Source: a virus. Taken from it: 56,636 nucleotides of DNA. Location: positions 1 through 56,636 of IMG/VR virus record IMGVR_UViG_3300046167_000031; one strand, given 5' to 3'. The first letter of the stretch is position 1. Each line of letters begins with the position of its first letter. The notes below the pieces were generated by a model, which worked only from the letters and a program-made list of their open reading frames with translations, was not told where the DNA came from and searched no databases. Below, in pieces: positions 1 through 56,636 of this stretch. The position numbers and the translations under genes are program-made.

Positions 1-247
1 CATATATCGTACCCCACCCGGCATGGCTCCTGCCCGGCCACCCTCCAAGGCGTGTATGCGGCTGCATTATGCGTAACCAAGCGCAGCGTTGGTGTTCACC
101 GTCTGTTCAACCCCTTGATATTGCATAGAATATGCAGTAGTTGACCAACAAAACCCAGTTGGAACAACTGTTATGGTATCAGTTGCCATCTGAAAGATGA
201 CTTGTGAAGGCCAGCCCTACAGATTTACAACAAGTTGTAAGGTTGAT
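1..247. repeat. Terminal direct repeat, left copy
   Basis: The first 247 bases recur at 56390-56636 in the same orientation, with differences only at positions 147 and 150 (A,A here; G,C in the right copy). The window is therefore either a circular genome opened at an arbitrary place or a linear genome with direct terminal repeats, as is usual for T7-like podoviruses. The two mismatches suggest the ends came from different strain variants. The repeat contains four of the mini-hairpins described below. Confidence 0.9.
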
Positions 248-279
248 GCACAACTCTCTTACCCTTACAGGGTATCCTT

Positions 280-295
280 AGTCCGACAGCGGACT
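280..295 (+). repeat. Hairpin repeat AGTCCGACAGCGGACT, copy 1
   Basis: Perfect 6-base stem with ACAG loop. Flanking T-A and GGTAT/ATACC pairs extend the fold here. It lies in the non-coding leader. Confidence 0.8.
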
Positions 296-459
296 ATACC
301 CCCTATCACTGAAGGTGATAGTCATACCAGCCACCGCAAAACCGAAAGCCTCGTGACGCATTGCGATTTCAGCGCAGGTATTTCAGAAACTTAAAGTTTC
401 TTGCAATCACATGGAAACGCTTGGGTAGGAGATGGCGCGAGGCAAACCCCAAACCTTAA

Positions 460-538
460 CTATCTTCTTACGGTTTTACGGGATATATCCCCTTGAACGT
501 AAGTGAAAGGGGTATATCCCTATAAAACCTAAAGATAG
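460..538 (+). promoter_or_regulatory. Long imperfect hairpin before the first gene
   Basis: Bases 460-494 and 507-538 form a near-continuous stem: CTATCTT pairs with AAGATAG, GGTTTTA with TAAAACC, and GGGATATATCCCCTT with AAGGGGTATATCCC. The loop is about 11 bases. It ends 15 bases before the start codon at 554. It could be an RNase III processing site, an attenuator or a translational control element. There is no U-tract directly after it, so a simple terminator is unlikely. Confidence 0.6.
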
Positions 539-553
539 ATAAGAGAGACCGAA

Positions 554-1177
554 ATGCAAAATTCAACTCCAAAAAAATCATTCTCCGTTCAATTAGCTGA
601 AGCTAATAACACTGTTCAAGCCAAAGGCTTAGTATTATCCCAATGGGATAAGTCAATCTGCAAAGCAGATAAGAGCCGTTTCAAAGCACTTTGTGCTAAG
701 GATGGCTTCTGGTTCTCCCTTGGAGAAATCTGTCTTGAACTGCTAAAGCAGTCTGGTGGCAGCAGAACTGACTCAGCTTTGCTGAAAGATGCTAATCTTC
801 ATACCGTTGCAAAGCAACGTAGAAATGAAGCTATGAAGTTTGTTACAAACTTTAAGGTTATCGAAGATAACAAGCTGATTGCCAGCCATGCTTCAATGAC
901 TAATCTGCTGAAAGCAGTGGACAAGATTATCAACCCTAAGGTTGAGAAAGAACCAAAGGTTCCAGTTGAGCCAAAGGCTCCAGTCTTGGCTATCGAAGAT
1001 AAGTCCAACGAAGTTGTCACTCAGTCTGTAAAGACTGCTGAAGATTTGGCTCTTGAAGTTCTACTGCAAGTAGAAATGAATAATATCAGCATAGCTGATT
1101 TCAAGGTTGCTATAGCTAACGCTATCGGTATGATTGAAGAGAACAACGAAGTTGTCCCATTTGAGATGGTAGGGTAA
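554..1177 (+). CDS. Hypothetical protein encoded by hairpin-saturated gene
   Basis: A 207-residue protein that I do not recognise and that shows no transmembrane segment. Residues about 135-150 form a Pro/Lys/Glu-rich linker (KVPVEPKAPV), followed by a mostly helical acidic C-terminal part. The start has a modest purine-rich site (AGAGAGACC) upstream. The gene is first in the early arm. Its DNA carries 22 perfect hairpins with arms of at least 5 bases in 624 bases, in all three codon phases, so the pattern does not come from a protein repeat. The stop codon lies in the loop of the 1162-1189 hairpin. The RNA or ssDNA may matter as much as the protein. Confidence 0.75.
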   Translation: MQNSTPKKSFSVQLAEANNTVQAKGLVLSQWDKSICKADKSRFKALCAKDGFWFSLGEICLELLKQSGGSRTDSALLKDANLHTVAKQRRNEAMKFVTNFKVIEDNKLIASHASMTNLLKAVDKIINPKVEKEPKVPVEPKAPVLAIEDKSNEVVTQSVKTAEDLALEVLLQVEMNNISIADFKVAIANAIGMIEENNEVVPFEMVG

Positions 1178-1195
1178 CCTACTATCTCATTCCTT

Positions 1196-1211
1196 AGTCC
1201 GACAGCGGACC
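1196..1211 (+). repeat. Hairpin repeat AGTCCGACAGCGGACC, copy 2
   Basis: Same hairpin with the last base C instead of T, so the inner stem is five pairs. It sits between the genes ending at 1177 and starting at 1234. Confidence 0.75.
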
Positions 1212-1233
1212 AACTAATACGGAGTATTAAACC

Positions 1234-1470
1234 ATGATTAGAGAATATTTCCATAGCATCTGCTGCCTGTTCTGGTGGTGCATAGCATTCGCTGCCTTTG
1301 CATCATCACCTATCATCCTTGTGTTCCATGATGCCATGTCTTCAGGAATAATGCTTTGCATTAGCTTTATGACTTGGGCTATGGGATTGTGTTTTTATGA
1401 CAGTGCTTTGCGGATTAGACAAATCCGTATCGAAGATGAAATTATTGCGAGGTACAAAAACAATGGCTAA
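1234..1470 (+). CDS. Small membrane protein
   Basis: A 78-residue protein with two hydrophobic stretches (about residues 8-25 and 30-52) and a charged C-terminus, so probably an inner-membrane protein with two passes. Function unknown. The GGAG ribosome binding site lies in the loop and stem of the hairpin 1215-1229, which could control its translation. The end overlaps the next gene by 8 bases. Confidence 0.65.
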   Translation: MIREYFHSICCLFWWCIAFAAFASSPIILVFHDAMSSGIMLCISFMTWAMGLCFYDSALRIRQIRIEDEIIARYKNNG

Positions 1471-1720
1471 ACGTGGTGCAATCATAGACATAGGACGGCA
1501 TAAGCCGTTAGGTTCAAGCTGGCGTAGCATGGATAGCATGGCCTATAGCCGTAGCTATGAGCCTGAGACACGGCCTGAGTTCCGTTGCTATGTCTCAGGA
1601 CAAGCTAAAGCTTGGCAAGCTGAGTATGATGCCAAGGTTGCAGCGGATGCAAAGCGTGATGCACAAATGCAAGCTTTGCTCGACTTGAAACAAAGGATGA
1701 TTGACAAGAATTTACTTTAG
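1463..1720 (+). CDS. Hypothetical early protein
   Basis: An 85-residue, basic, Ala/Lys/Asp-rich protein beginning MAKRGAIIDIGRHKPLG. I chose the ATG at 1463 because GAGG lies upstream and it overlaps the previous stop; an upstream in-frame ATG at 1397 lies deep in the previous gene. The C-terminal half (KAWQAEYDAKVAADAKRDA) is predicted helical. Not recognised. Confidence 0.65.
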   Translation: MAKRGAIIDIGRHKPLGSSWRSMDSMAYSRSYEPETRPEFRCYVSGQAKAWQAEYDAKVAADAKRDAQMQALLDLKQRMIDKNLL

Positions 1721-1730
1721 TGTGTATAAC
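1701..1730 (+). promoter_or_regulatory. Putative promoter, TTGACA-N18-TATAAC
   Basis: A perfect -35 TTGACA (1701-1706) and -10 TATAAC (1725-1730), 18 bases apart, overlap the 3' end of the preceding gene. It would drive the operon that starts at 1816. An 8-base inverted repeat (1736-1763) lies at or just after the predicted start. Confidence 0.65.
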
Positions 1731-1735
1731 GTAAT

Positions 1736-1763
1736 AACACTTAGAACGTTAGTGATAAGTGTT
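1736..1763. promoter_or_regulatory. Inverted repeat, possible operator or 5' leader hairpin
   Basis: AACACTTA (1736-1743) and TAAGTGTT (1756-1763) are perfect inverted repeats with a 12-base spacer, immediately downstream of the promoter at 1701-1730. This is suitable for a repressor site or an RNA hairpin. Confidence 0.45.
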
Positions 1764-1785
1764 CTTACTTATATCCACTCTAGCT

Positions 1786-1801
1786 AGTCCGACAGCGGAC
1801 T
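1786..1801 (+). repeat. Hairpin repeat AGTCCGACAGCGGACT, copy 3
   Basis: Identical to copy 1, with a seventh T-A pair. It ends just before the AAGGAG ribosome binding site of the gene at 1816. Confidence 0.8.
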
Positions 1802-1815
1802 AAGGAGAATTGAAA

Positions 1816-2067
1816 ATGACTGAACTATTCCTTGTAAATATGATACATCGTGGTGGTAACTATGGTGGTGGTACAAAAGAAGGTGATTGGGTGTGCTTTG
1901 AGTCTACACATAGCCTTGCTGCTGCTAGTAACACAGCAGATGCCTTACGAAGTGGTGGGAACAAGGTGCGTATCCAATCAGTATTGATTGGCACTGGTGG
2001 TCAAGTAATACTTACCCTGACCCACTATATAGTGACCAAGACAGCACTAGATTTTAGGAGATTATAA
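1816..2067 (+). CDS. Hypothetical early protein
   Basis: An 83-residue protein starting MTELFLVNMIHRGGNYGG, with a Gly-rich N-terminal region. Start chosen at the ATG 8 bases after AAGGAG (1802-1807); an in-frame TTG at 1810 is too close to the site. Not recognised. It is the first gene after the third AGTCCG hairpin. Confidence 0.7.
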   Translation: MTELFLVNMIHRGGNYGGGTKEGDWVCFESTHSLAAASNTADALRSGGNKVRIQSVLIGTGGQVILTLTHYIVTKTALDFRRL

Positions 2068-2068
2068 A

Positions 2069-2344
2069 TTGGCTACAATTTACAAAGATGAATTGGTACA
2101 AACCTTGTGGGATTTGTTCAAGGAAGTGCATGGTGTACGTCCTCGTGGCATGGGCTATGAAAAGTATTCCGTCACTGACCTTGAGCATGAGATTGCTCAT
2201 TTAGAGCGTTCTCTTGAGGAAGAGATACGCCATGAGCGTGAGATGGAAGATAGAGCCATCAATGCTTGCATGGCTTGTGGTGCTAGTGACATAGGTACAG
2301 CTATGCGTTGGCTTGAAGATGCTTATGAAATGGAGTGGGTGTAA
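2069..2344 (+). CDS. Hypothetical protein with TTG start
   Basis: A 91-residue acidic helical protein (MATIYKDELVQTLWDLF). The start codon is TTG, preceded by AGGAG, two bases after the previous stop. It has two cysteines (CMAC) and a long charged helix around residues 40-60. Function unknown. Confidence 0.65.
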   Translation: MATIYKDELVQTLWDLFKEVHGVRPRGMGYEKYSVTDLEHEIAHLERSLEEEIRHEREMEDRAINACMACGASDIGTAMRWLEDAYEMEWV

Positions 2345-2345
2345 T

Positions 2346-2525
2346 ATGTATAATCGTTCTAATCATCAGATTAGCCCTAACAAGCTGTTTGTTATCGAAC
2401 AGATAGAGGGCGTATGGAAGCAGCTTACAAGTGATAGCTTGCCTGTTTCCGAACTTGCCACATGGCATATCATGGACTTGGAATCCTTGAAGTTTAGACT
2501 TCAGGCAAAACTTATTACGGAGTAA
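2346..2525 (+). CDS. Hypothetical protein
   Basis: A 59-residue protein (MYNRSNHQISPNKLFVIEQ) whose ATG follows the previous stop by one base, which suggests translational coupling. Not recognised. Confidence 0.6.
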   Translation: MYNRSNHQISPNKLFVIEQIEGVWKQLTSDSLPVSELATWHIMDLESLKFRLQAKLITE

Positions 2526-3520: not shown

Positions 3521-3536
3521 AGTCCGACAGCGGACT
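3521..3536 (+). repeat. Hairpin repeat AGTCCGACAGCGGACT, copy 4
   Basis: Identical 16 bases. It is followed directly by the AAGGAG ribosome binding site of the gene at 3550, as in copy 3. Confidence 0.8.
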
Positions 3537-4061: not shown

Positions 4062-4467
4062 TCAAGTAAGAATATATTGGAATCTTCATAAGAAATGCTG
4101 GTCTGTACAAGACCGCAAGACAGGCAGAGTAATCAGACATGAGACCTCTTGCGTCTTATCTGCTGGTAAGTTTGTTGTCCGCAAAGCTGGGCAAGAAAAG
4201 GTGAGGCGTGAGGGCAAGAAGAATGTCCACGCCTTTGCCGTAGGCACAGTATCAAACTTGGATGCTAGGGCTTTCATGCAAGATACATGTAGACCAGTCA
4301 CATACAACCCCTATGTCAATGACACCTTTGTGTTCAAAGATACAGGTGAATCTGTTACCGACATTGACACAATCGTTGTCGGTAAATACGAAGGTAGGCC
4401 ATGCGTATGGGCTTACCAAAACCCCAACCCTACTAAGTCCGACAGCGGACTAACAACAACCAACTAA
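4054..4467 (+). CDS. Conserved phage hypothetical protein with captured hairpin repeat
   Basis: A 137-residue basic protein. Residues 5-60 resemble proteins often found in phage early operons (YWNLHKKCWSVQDRKTGRVI). The last 11 residues are encoded across the fifth AGTCCG hairpin (4436-4451), so the C-terminal tail probably arose when the element landed there or the stop moved. Function unknown. Confidence 0.65.
   Translation: MTSQVRIYWNLHKKCWSVQDRKTGRVIRHETSCVLSAGKFVVRKAGQEKVRREGKKNVHAFAVGTVSNLDARAFMQDTCRPVTYNPYVNDTFVFKDTGESVTDIDTIVVGKYEGRPCVWAYQNPNPTKSDSGLTTTN
4436..4451 (+). repeat. Hairpin repeat AGTCCGACAGCGGACT, copy 5
   Basis: Identical 16 bases, but here it lies inside the 3' end of the gene 4054-4467, where it encodes part of its last 11 residues. 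Its use as coding sequence suggests an inserted or captured element. Confidence 0.8.
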
Positions 4468-41398: not shown

Positions 41399-43261
41399 TT
41401 ACGCAGCTTTCTTCAATGCATTTTTATATTGTCCATGCACTGTGTAAACTTCACCTTCTGTATACACATCATAGCGGTCTTCTACTGTACCAATATAAAC
41501 TGTTGGTGTTACTTGCTCTACATACTCAAGTGATGTCACTTCTACGTTATTAATGTAATCACCAAGCACTAAGTCCTCTGTACGCTTCCAAGAACCGTTG
41601 GCAAGTACCGGGTGGTCATTAGTAATCTTCAACTCGCCGTTGACTTTGTAGTAGCCTTCACGCATATGTTTATGTAATACTTCTGTAACTACTGTGTTAT
41701 CTATGATGTCACCTACTTGTACCTTAGTCACAAAGTCTATAACACCATTGCGTTTTACTTTCATGTCTTCAGTTAGACAGATAACACCCATGTCACCTGC
41801 GCCACCTGCGCCACCACTATCTGAGCCATAGCCCCCACCCGGTGAATCGTTATTACTTTCGGCACCGGGACTGCCAGCAGTTTCTTGTCCAGAAACAGAA
41901 CTACCACCCGGAGAACCTACACCAATATCACCTGACGGAGTTCCAGCATTTCCACCAGTGTAATCAGAACGTCCTTTTCCTGTACCACCCGGTGGTGTAC
42001 CGTAAGAACCTGCTTCTGCGGCTGGACCCCCACTACCCGGTGGACCTTCACCTTGTGGGTCATATCCTAATTCTTTAGCTTTTGCAGCGTATCCTTTTTT
42101 TCCTTTTTCAGATAAGTTAGCAACTTCATCTTTAGATAAAGGACCACCATAATATCCACTGCTTACTGATGCTTTCATTGCATCCATCCAACCACCCATA
42201 GTTTCAAATCCGGGGTCTACCCCCCTTGAACTACCATTAAAGTTTACTACTCTTCCTTTAGAATTTACAGGTGTTCCAGTAATAGGACTAATATCACCCT
42301 TTTTATATCCTACAATTCCAGTAATAGGTGTACCAATAGCCCTTTGAACTTGCGCACGTGCCTGTGCTTGATTTTGATTCATAGAAATACCAAGTTCATT
42401 TTGTTGTGCTTTACTCATTTTACCTGTTGCGTAAGCTTCTAAATTTGCTGTAGAATATGCGCCATGTCCCGTTGGTGCTGCTTGACCAAATGCTTCTGTA
42501 CTAGGTCCAATACCTGATGCAGAGGCAAGTGCGCCTAAAGGATTTCCCATAAGCATACTACCAACTATACCTAGATTAACAGGCCCAGTTCCATATACAC
42601 CCAATGCGTCTTGCACACCTGAAATATTATTTGAAAAATCTGTAATAGTACCCAAATTAGTTAAACCTGATAATGTAGTGCCACCATAAGGTTGGGCTTG
42701 TGCAGGTTTGCCACTAAAATAACCTGTTACACCACTTAAAGCTGATTGTACACCCGCAAGTCCTGTCGTGCCACCTGCTGGTCCTTGAACAGAACCACTA
42801 ACACCTGTACCGCCGCCACCATCGCCGCCGCCGTCATCTTGTTGTTGTTGTCCTACATTAGCAACGGGTCCAGTAGTCGCTTCTATTACTTGTGTAGTAT
42901 CTTCAGCCTCAAACCTATAACCTTCTGGAATAGGATAAATAGGTTGTCCATTTTTAAATGGTATTTGTCTTACTTGTCCTGCATCATTTACATATCGTCT
43001 TAACTCATCATACTCACCCGGTTTAGTTCCTACTGTTTGTAAAAATGTAGGTAAGTTAGTTGTCTGTGTTGCTGTTGTATATTGTGTATTTTGAAGTTGT
43101 GGTTTAGTAAAACCGGGAATAGTAGGTGCTACATAGGGGGTAAATCCTGTAGTGGAAACATTTGCTGGCGTATTAATAACGCCAGTACCCGACATAGGTG
43201 TTGTCCCACCTAGTTGAAAAGAAAGTTTTGTTTGTTCTTTTACGTTGTTACGTTTTTTCAT
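41399..43261 (-). CDS. Virion protein with C-terminal Hint (autoprocessing) domain
   Basis: A 620-residue protein. Residues 1-480 are Gly/Ser/Thr/Pro-rich with low-complexity linkers (QQQQDDGGGDGGGG). Residues 495-620 are a Hint domain: Cys495 in ICLTEDMKVK (block A), KVQVGDII, His550 in ITNDHPVL (block B) and VYTVHG near the end, where inteins have VHN. Cys495 could attack the bond before it and cleave or link the virion part. With no C-extein it is more like a hedgehog-type processing domain. It overlaps the next gene by 4 bases. Confidence 0.75.
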   Translation of the reverse strand: MKKRNNVKEQTKLSFQLGGTTPMSGTGVINTPANVSTTGFTPYVAPTIPGFTKPQLQNTQYTTATQTTNLPTFLQTVGTKPGEYDELRRYVNDAGQVRQIPFKNGQPIYPIPEGYRFEAEDTTQVIEATTGPVANVGQQQQDDGGGDGGGGTGVSGSVQGPAGGTTGLAGVQSALSGVTGYFSGKPAQAQPYGGTTLSGLTNLGTITDFSNNISGVQDALGVYGTGPVNLGIVGSMLMGNPLGALASASGIGPSTEAFGQAAPTGHGAYSTANLEAYATGKMSKAQQNELGISMNQNQAQARAQVQRAIGTPITGIVGYKKGDISPITGTPVNSKGRVVNFNGSSRGVDPGFETMGGWMDAMKASVSSGYYGGPLSKDEVANLSEKGKKGYAAKAKELGYDPQGEGPPGSGGPAAEAGSYGTPPGGTGKGRSDYTGGNAGTPSGDIGVGSPGGSSVSGQETAGSPGAESNNDSPGGGYGSDSGGAGGAGDMGVICLTEDMKVKRNGVIDFVTKVQVGDIIDNTVVTEVLHKHMREGYYKVNGELKITNDHPVLANGSWKRTEDLVLGDYINNVEVTSLEYVEQVTPTVYIGTVEDRYDVYTEGEVYTVHGQYKNALKKAA

Positions 43262-51558: not shown

Positions 51559-52641
51559 CTACGCTGCCAAACTTGCTGGGCTGCTTGCTTCAACACCCAT
51601 CCACTTACTCCATTCTGCATAGTAGTGTCTCATCCCTACTTCATCATGTATTGTGCCATTCTCATGTCTGCCATGTAGAATGTTTCTAGGCTCTGTGCCT
51701 TCACGCATCGTTGTACCCTGACCAGCTACTCCTATGAGGTCTTCGTGTAAGTTTCTACCGAATGGCCCCCATATAGAGTTGTGATGCTTAATGCGTGTCT
51801 GTCTTTCCTCTGGCGTATCTTTCTTGAGACCGTAGCCTCTAAACTCAATAAGAACTTTGTTTGGCCCAAGAGGTGTAACACTATCGCTTCTATAAGCACT
51901 ACCCCGTAGATTAAAATTAAATCCGGGGAAAAGGTCAACCATGTACCATTGATTGGGTGGCAAGTTAGGGAAACTAAGTTCTCCTCTATCCTCAAAGCCA
52001 TCGTATTCCTCGTAGTTAACTGTGAAGCTACTGACGTTGACGTGTCCGTTATCAAACGGTATATTTTTTCTAGCAAAGTATTCATCGTTGAATCCAGACA
52101 CACGATTAAAGTAATGCATAAAGTCGTGGTAGAACTCACTGTTAGTATCATGCCACAGCTTGTAGTTAGTGTCTATCACTGCCTTGTGGTAGTGAAACAC
52201 TTCCATCTCTTCCGTGTCAATGGCATCTGCTATACAGTCGAATGCGCCAGCAGTCCACTCATCCACACTCATAGACGGGTTTGTATCTAGGGTAGTCCAG
52301 ACCATACCACCATGTTTTACTTCACACGGTAGTTCAGTCCAGTTACCTGAATGGTAAGTTAGAGATAGGTCATTGCCAGCAGGGGTTTTTACTTTATCTG
52401 TAAGAAATGTCCTGACTACACCATTCTCAAAACGCACAGCTACAACATTCTGCAATGCTATCTGCGTCTTTCTAAAGTCTCCTAAGTTAGGTAATTCACT
52501 TGAGTGACACATAGGAACCCATACTTTAGAGAATATGTTTTCTAGTTCCTGCTCATACAAACTGTGGTCAGAGTATATGAGTGAACTTATGTGTTCTACT
52601 TTAGGTTCTTTAATCCAGTCCTTATGATTACGTGGTGGCAT
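51559..52641 (-). CDS. Rieske-type oxygenase homolog lacking the Rieske cluster
   Basis: A 360-residue protein with the layout of ring-hydroxylating oxygenase alpha subunits. The N-terminal LENIFSKVWVPMCHSSELP and LGDFRKTQIALQNVVAV parts match. The region where CxH and CxxH ligands should bind [2Fe-2S] instead reads TDKVKTPAGNDLSLTYHSGN. The catalytic half keeps NYKLWHDTNSEFYHDFMHYF with candidate iron ligands His172 and His176, and EDLIGVAGQG with Asp301. I recall a methanesulfonate-monooxygenase-like gene in HMO-2011. Reaction unknown. Confidence 0.75.
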   Translation of the reverse strand: MPPRNHKDWIKEPKVEHISSLIYSDHSLYEQELENIFSKVWVPMCHSSELPNLGDFRKTQIALQNVVAVRFENGVVRTFLTDKVKTPAGNDLSLTYHSGNWTELPCEVKHGGMVWTTLDTNPSMSVDEWTAGAFDCIADAIDTEEMEVFHYHKAVIDTNYKLWHDTNSEFYHDFMHYFNRVSGFNDEYFARKNIPFDNGHVNVSSFTVNYEEYDGFEDRGELSFPNLPPNQWYMVDLFPGFNFNLRGSAYRSDSVTPLGPNKVLIEFRGYGLKKDTPEERQTRIKHHNSIWGPFGRNLHEDLIGVAGQGTTMREGTEPRNILHGRHENGTIHDEVGMRHYYAEWSKWMGVEASSPASLAA

Positions 52642-56023: not shown

Positions 56024-56147
56024 AAGTGTTTATAGTTAAACTGCATTAACAAAGAAAATTTAGGGGAAGCTAACTTTAGTACATTTAAGTGATATAGTTA
56101 AAGAGTATTATATAATTAACAATAAGACAGTTTAACTATAGACACTT
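56024..56147. repeat. Inverted and direct repeats in the control region
   Basis: AAGTGTTTATAGTTAAACTG (56024-56043) and its near-perfect inverse (56128-56147, one mismatch) flank a third, direct copy at 56086-56102 (TAAGTGATATAGTTAAA). Such iterons could bind a regulator or replication protein, or fold the leader RNA of the virion arm. Confidence 0.65.
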
Positions 56148-56172
56148 TAAGTGAGTATTAGTTATAGGGATA

Positions 56173-56201
56173 ATTATACCTGATTTAGCAGGTTTTGTCA
56201 A
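56173..56201 (-). promoter_or_regulatory. Perfect sigma-70 promoter for the virion arm
   Basis: On the minus strand TTGACA (56201-56196), a 17-base spacer and TATAAT (56178-56173). The spacer holds the dyad ACCTG-ATTTAG-CAGGT, suited to a repressor site that would block RNA polymerase. Confidence 0.85.
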
Positions 56202-56389: not shown

Positions 56390-56636
56390 CATATATCGTA
56401 CCCCACCCGGCATGGCTCCTGCCCGGCCACCCTCCAAGGCGTGTATGCGGCTGCATTATGCGTAACCAAGCGCAGCGTTGGTGTTCACCGTCTGTTCAAC
56501 CCCTTGATATTGCATAGAATATGCAGTAGTTGACCGACCAAACCCAGTTGGAACAACTGTTATGGTATCAGTTGCCATCTGAAAGATGACTTGTGAAGGC
56601 CAGCCCTACAGATTTACAACAAGTTGTAAGGTTGAT
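56390..56636. repeat. Terminal direct repeat, right copy
   Basis: Second copy of bases 1-247, 245 of 247 identical by eye. Joining the ends gives a circle of about 56,389 bp and places the promoter at 56359-56387 directly upstream of the leader that begins at base 1. Confidence 0.9.

Follow-up and report, generated by a model that had tools for sequence, protein, structure and literature searches.

The window analyzed here is the whole of a 56.6-kb IMG/VR virus record, the ends of which overlap by about 246 bases. The overlap is a terminal direct repeat (1-246 and 56392-56636; CAACAAAACCC vs. CGACCAAACCC), and because its copies differ at a few positions, the window ends do not form an exact k-mer overlap. 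The encoded DNA polymerase shares 80.6% identity with the enzyme of Puniceispirillum phage HMO-2011, and at the DNA level the beginning of the window aligns with the end of the HMO-2011 record at 78.6%. Thus, judged from sequence by its related polymerase and gene order, the window is classed as an HMO-2011-type phage, a type described as dominant, with a broad distribution across the ocean (PMC9038755). Among the other genes, a 620-amino-acid (aa) structural open reading frame (ORF) on the minus strand (41399-43261) has an end (CLTEDMKV...TNDHPVLANG...) that by eye resembles a Hint (intein/hedgehog-type) domain, and another minus-strand ORF (51559-52641) appears, by position and appearance, to be a homologue of the HMO-2011 gene annotated as methanesulfonate monooxygenase. 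A ribosome-site context, AAGGAG(A/T)TTGAC(A/G)ATG, is repeated on the plus strand before several small early genes (3537, 5076, 5598, and 5936).

The region under study lies where the early and late arms diverge; in HMO-2011, the equivalent region separates the leftward arm from the rightward early genes. It adjoins an AT-rich intergenic stretch (56030-56190) with iteron-like repeats (TTTAAGTGA and TAGTTATAG) that is common to HMO-2011 and is a possible origin or divergent promoter. Cumulative GC skew turns at the same place, which fits an origin or simply the divergence of the genes.

At the junction, a plus-strand gene (554-1177) encodes an orphan protein of 207 aa. Searches with Pfam, PHROGs, PDB sequences, Foldseek, and VIA-align assigned it to no family, which is still compatible with a known fold, and no DNA-binding family was recognizable by sequence or structure searches. 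The model of the protein is all-helical and shows a disordered linker and a pair of helices at the C terminus, and the family carries an invariant Arg-Arg pair. The leader upstream contains a conserved motif, CAACTGTTATGGTATCAGTTGCCAT (165-189, plus strand), which is nearly invariant in A2 and has exact matches in 38 viral stretches. Just upstream of the gene is a long imperfect stem, CTATCTT...AAGATAG (460-538, plus strand), for which relatives L004 and L006 have the compensatory variant CTAAGTT...AACTTAG.

A sequence-specific 16-bp palindrome, AGTCCGACAGCGGACT, occurs five times on the plus strand (280-295, 1196-1211 with one mismatch, 1786-1801, 3521-3536, and 4436-4451), the fourth copy immediately 5' of an AAGGAG ribosome site. 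All copies are in the early operon and none is found elsewhere in the window (0.72 expected with two mismatches allowed). Versions in relatives include GTCCAA-TG-TTGGAC and GTCCGA-TG-TCGGAC, and in the distant group the gene itself contains a copy, translated as the peptide KSNVG. The hairpin system described below may use the palindrome as a nucleation site.

Hairpin content of the orphan gene and its relatives

Counting perfect hairpins (arms of at least 5 bases, loops of 2 to 5), we found 34 on the plus strand between 122 and 1229, in keeping with the original prediction of more than 30. Nine lie in the noncoding leader (122-491), at 122-136, 156-170, 187-199, 225-240, 260-274, 279-296, 303-321, 385-401, and 480-491. 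The gene itself contains 22. The first 11 are at 592-607, 618-630, 635-651, 656-670, 682-693, 685-697, 713-727, 739-752, 773-785, 786-799, and 805-819, the pair starting at 682 and 685 being the only one that overlaps; the other 11 are at 836-852, 857-871, 905-917, 930-945, 950-962, 968-980, 1022-1037, 1059-1075, 1085-1099, 1112-1125, and 1143-1155. One hairpin, GTAGG-GTAA-CCTAC (1169-1182), spans the end of the gene and holds its stop codon in the loop, and of the two that follow, TAATAC-GGA-GTATTA (1215-1229) covers the next gene's ribosome site, both as had been described. The array was thought to end at 1229 and to give way to ordinary density; instead, density falls off gradually over the next small early genes (1230-2400, plus strand).

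Arms are 5 to 8 bp, loops are 2 to 4 nucleotides (nt) and mostly 3, and the hairpin sequences are unrelated, with no motif found in common when their surroundings were searched. Loops had been described as mostly of three bases and often GAA closed by C-G. The three-base size stands, but AAA is as common as GAA, and in the window GAA closed by C-G is seen only at 857 and 1143. In the gene family, 59 of 249 distinct triloops are GNA; GNA and AAA triplets form stable DNA mini-hairpin loops. Relative to expectation, loops of 2, 3, and 4 nt are 3.8-, 6.8-, and 3.1-fold enriched, respectively (for 3-nt loops, 517 observed vs. 76 expected), and loops of 5 to 8 nt are at expectation.

Shuffles that keep the protein and its codon use give 6.36 ± 2.2 hairpins in the gene (maximum, 14; 1,000 shuffles) and so never reach the 22 observed, an excess of about 3.5-fold. 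The earlier estimate of 2 to 3 by chance is right for permuted codon order (2.7) but too low for this protein, whose composition alone lifts the expectation to 6.4; that the pattern does not come from protein repeats holds as far as tested. In a scan of 86 ORFs with loops of 2 to 4 nt, the gene has a z score of 9.8 and the runner-up 3.6, and the densest 600-nt stretch of the genome is the one at 600 (23 hairpins vs. a mean of 3.1). ORFs beyond 2500, pooled, contain 173 hairpins against 155 expected. The gene is the single large outlier of the genome.

The orphan family comprises about 56 nonredundant genes with identity down to 26%, drawn from metagenomes and nine isolate records, the sampled relatives being mutually nonindependent. 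Almost every member has the excess, which is 4- to 7-fold in most relatives. Close relatives all have 18 to 25 hairpins against about 3 to 5 in shuffles, and in the larger set z is about 4 to 13 for nearly all, the weak cases being L127 (0.7) and L109 (2.5). HMO-2011 and the roseophages CRP-1 (gp01, 15 hairpins vs. 3.1 expected) and CRP-345 (gp01, 10 vs. 2.4) are among the phages showing it, the last two with more distant versions of the gene. With shuffles and relatives in such agreement, a product of chance, codon use, or protein composition has next to no probability, although the protein does account for the rise from 2.7 to 6.4.

Hairpin-dense zones in the loci examined nearly all coincide with the gene or adjoin it. 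Across the 33 loci profiled, mean density reaches a peak of about 5 per 200 bases within the gene and falls over about 1 kb upstream and about 2 kb downstream. Six HMO-type isolates without the gene (CRP-2, CRP-603, CRP-207, CRP-3, CRP-235, and HTVC033P) carry other genes at the locus and no array there (record ends of CRP-603 and CRP-235 left out), and a search of bacterial genomes for prophage relatives found none. The coupling of array and protein is not strict, because L047 and L055 (4 to 5 hairpins vs. 1.5 expected) and L127 (4 vs. 2.9) keep the protein with few hairpins. The gene is also a mosaic, with N- and C-terminal modules exchanged between lineages (554-1177 and relatives L002, L003, L005, and L009), and this mosaicism may move whole hairpins by recombination.

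The comparison with related phages that had been proposed shows that stems covary and that relatives retain and re-create the pairing rather than losing it while keeping the protein. In place of ATCTGC-AAA-GCAGAT, one site can hold ATCAGC-AAA-GCTGAT, ATCACC-AAA-GGTGAT, or TTGCC-AAA-GGCAA, and the amino acids change along with it (C-K-A, S-K-A, and T-K-G); other sites behave alike. Hairpin positions are common to very divergent proteins. Among 38 close pairs, which are nonindependent, fourfold-degenerate sites were changed at 165 of 1,826 positions in stems (9.0%), 51 of 335 in loops (15.2%), and 760 of 4,143 elsewhere (18.3%), whereas no such difference is seen for hairpins that arise by chance in other early genes (194/423 in stems [45.9%] vs. 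4,311/9,429 outside [45.7%]). Since stems change half as often and the control hairpins do not, stem pairing is under purifying selection, the loops much less so. Across this large family of phage genes, selection keeps hairpins and compensatory changes make them anew.

Selection at the level of DNA or RNA

Several observations would suit selection on RNA, in which case the early transcript would be a string of mini-hairpins that shields it from RNases, Rho, or antisense pairing, acts as an antiterminator, or binds protein. The region is transcribed early, in the sense direction and with a long leader, its sense-strand RNA folds far beyond codon shuffles (mean z of about -5), the array thins at the translation start, and the long stem at 460-538 covaries. 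Leader loops are purine-rich on the plus strand (83 of 124; CAAAG 16 vs. CTTTG 5, CGAAG 12 vs. CTTCG 3), which suggests that the plus strand folds there, as single-stranded DNA (ssDNA) or RNA, and could count against a property of double-stranded DNA, which would not need such a bias. Purine loops within the gene were rejected as a strand signal, being explained by codon composition; only the leader retains the bias.

However, G-U is no better tolerated in the stems than A-C, unlike what is expected of structured RNA: single changes from Watson-Crick stems comprise 461 distinct G-T and 488 A-C cases, against a neutral transition ratio of 1.05 outside stems. Distinct one-mismatch stems split 56 G-T to 52 A-C in the leader and 58 to 75 in the gene; an apparent excess of G-T on the plus strand of leaders (86 vs. 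57) was discarded, as it disappeared once a single conserved motif was collapsed. Compared with codon shuffles, the sense and antisense strands gain equally in folding energy (-34.8 and -34.7 kcal/mol, respectively). RNA loops of 3 to 9 nt cost about equal energy, yet loops of 5 to 8 are not enriched, and 2-nt loops are under selection. In 52 nonredundant leaders, 3-nt loops are enriched 6.0-fold and 2-nt loops 4.7-fold over dinucleotide shuffles. Counting distinct stems and excluding the repeated palindrome, the extra pair that closes a 2-nt loop, which cannot form in RNA, is 3.6-fold enriched, against 1.9-fold for an open 4-nt loop, a modest result. No Rfam family matches the window at gathering score. 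Folding with DNA or RNA energy parameters gives similar z scores and so does not discriminate between the two, and an RNAalifold consensus of the whole region brings in long-range pairs, which makes it of limited help.

With G-U no better than A-C, equal sense and antisense gains, an excess limited to loops of 2 to 4 nt, and enriched closing pairs in 2-nt loops, selection at the DNA level (cruciforms or ssDNA hairpins) is more likely than a folded RNA, which we regard as possible but somewhat unlikely. The functions first proposed for an RNA (decoy, put-like antiterminator, or RNase-resistant RNA) are accordingly disfavored, and the ssDNA structures proposed alongside them fit better.

A mutational origin, in which hairpin-templated strand switching near an origin perfects imperfect inverted repeats with little function, would explain the perfect Watson-Crick arms, the strand symmetry, and the gradient with distance. 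Loops of the palindrome do occur in both orientations (TG 85 and CA 46; ACAG 44 and CTGT 24). However, stems evolve at half the synonymous rate of the rest when they should evolve faster, very divergent proteins have hairpin positions in common, and loop inversion, taken as a sign of strand switching, is present in the palindrome but not enriched in hairpins of the gene (3/176 vs. a background of 3.1%). We therefore consider this origin doubtful.

The hairpins are also of the size class of the N4-type promoters used by a virion RNA polymerase (arms of 5 to 7 bp, 3-nt loops, many of them GNA). Such promoters are very improbable here, because no viral RNA polymerase was found: the largest ORF encodes 1,332 aa and has no PHROG match, the N4 enzyme being about 3,500 aa, and a PHROG search of the three largest late ORFs gave no match, although distant enzymes can escape such a search. 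In addition, the more than 30 hairpins are unrelated and share no flank, and a C(GNA)G loop is not the rule among them.

Tentatively, then, we favor a selected array that folds as DNA and serves as a platform for a structure-specific binder controlling the start of replication or transcription. Selection would act on the DNA instead of on an mRNA fold, and where the early-late junction is negatively supercoiled or single-stranded, the array could fold into a string of DNA hairpins or cruciforms. This string might then be bound by a structure-specific protein, perhaps most likely the product of the gene, which is a candidate because array and protein family are linked; once bound, it could control the start of replication or early and late transcription. 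In N4, hairpins of similar size extrude in vivo under gyrase supercoiling, and host SSB melts the hairpin on one strand only (PMC4496689). Arms of 5 to 6 bp are short for extrusion, which is a point against the cruciform form of the model. More speculatively, and with rather low probability, the gene may double as a DNA scaffold that, when unwound, folds into mini-hairpins bound by its own product. If so, a major marine phage group would share a DNA structure element that is self-encoded and independent of sequence.

Relation to known systems

What is selected here, over an extended length of DNA, within a protein gene, and across large divergence, is the presence of hairpins and not their sequence. 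If selection is at the DNA level, this would be a kind of genomic element invisible to ordinary annotation, and the cultivable HMO-2011, CRP-1, and CRP-345 offer systems for testing folded DNA in cells. We know of no such element described; a limited open-access literature search found nothing on hairpins in HMO-2011 phages or on a matching element, so that the claim of no named counterpart holds as far as tested (Rfam, Pfam, PHROG, PDB, and this search).

Among known systems, the early promoters of N4, recognized by its virion RNA polymerase, are likewise small, short-loop DNA hairpins; they lie in a podophage's early region and form by supercoiling (PMC4496689). However, N4 has three promoters with conserved bases, whereas here more than 30 unrelated hairpins fill a gene and its leader, with no such polymerase found. 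The put antiterminator RNA of HK022 also places hairpins in an early leader, but there two specific hairpins of the RNA act on RNA polymerase, and the array is sequence-independent, is kilobase-long, and shows no wobble tolerance. Genome-scale ordered RNA structure in RNA viruses and CsrB-type sponges similarly spread many local hairpins over long sequences, including coding ones; these folds use G-U pairs or a fixed GGA loop, whereas the stems here are strictly Watson-Crick and strand-symmetric with AAA and GAA loops, and GGA, which fills most loops of CsrB/RsmZ sponges, accounts for only 9 of the 249 distinct triloops. Integron attC sites and single-strand origins, which are sites of folded single-strand DNA, likewise rely for their information on DNA hairpins more than on sequence; they are single sites, whereas here whole arrays are written into codons.
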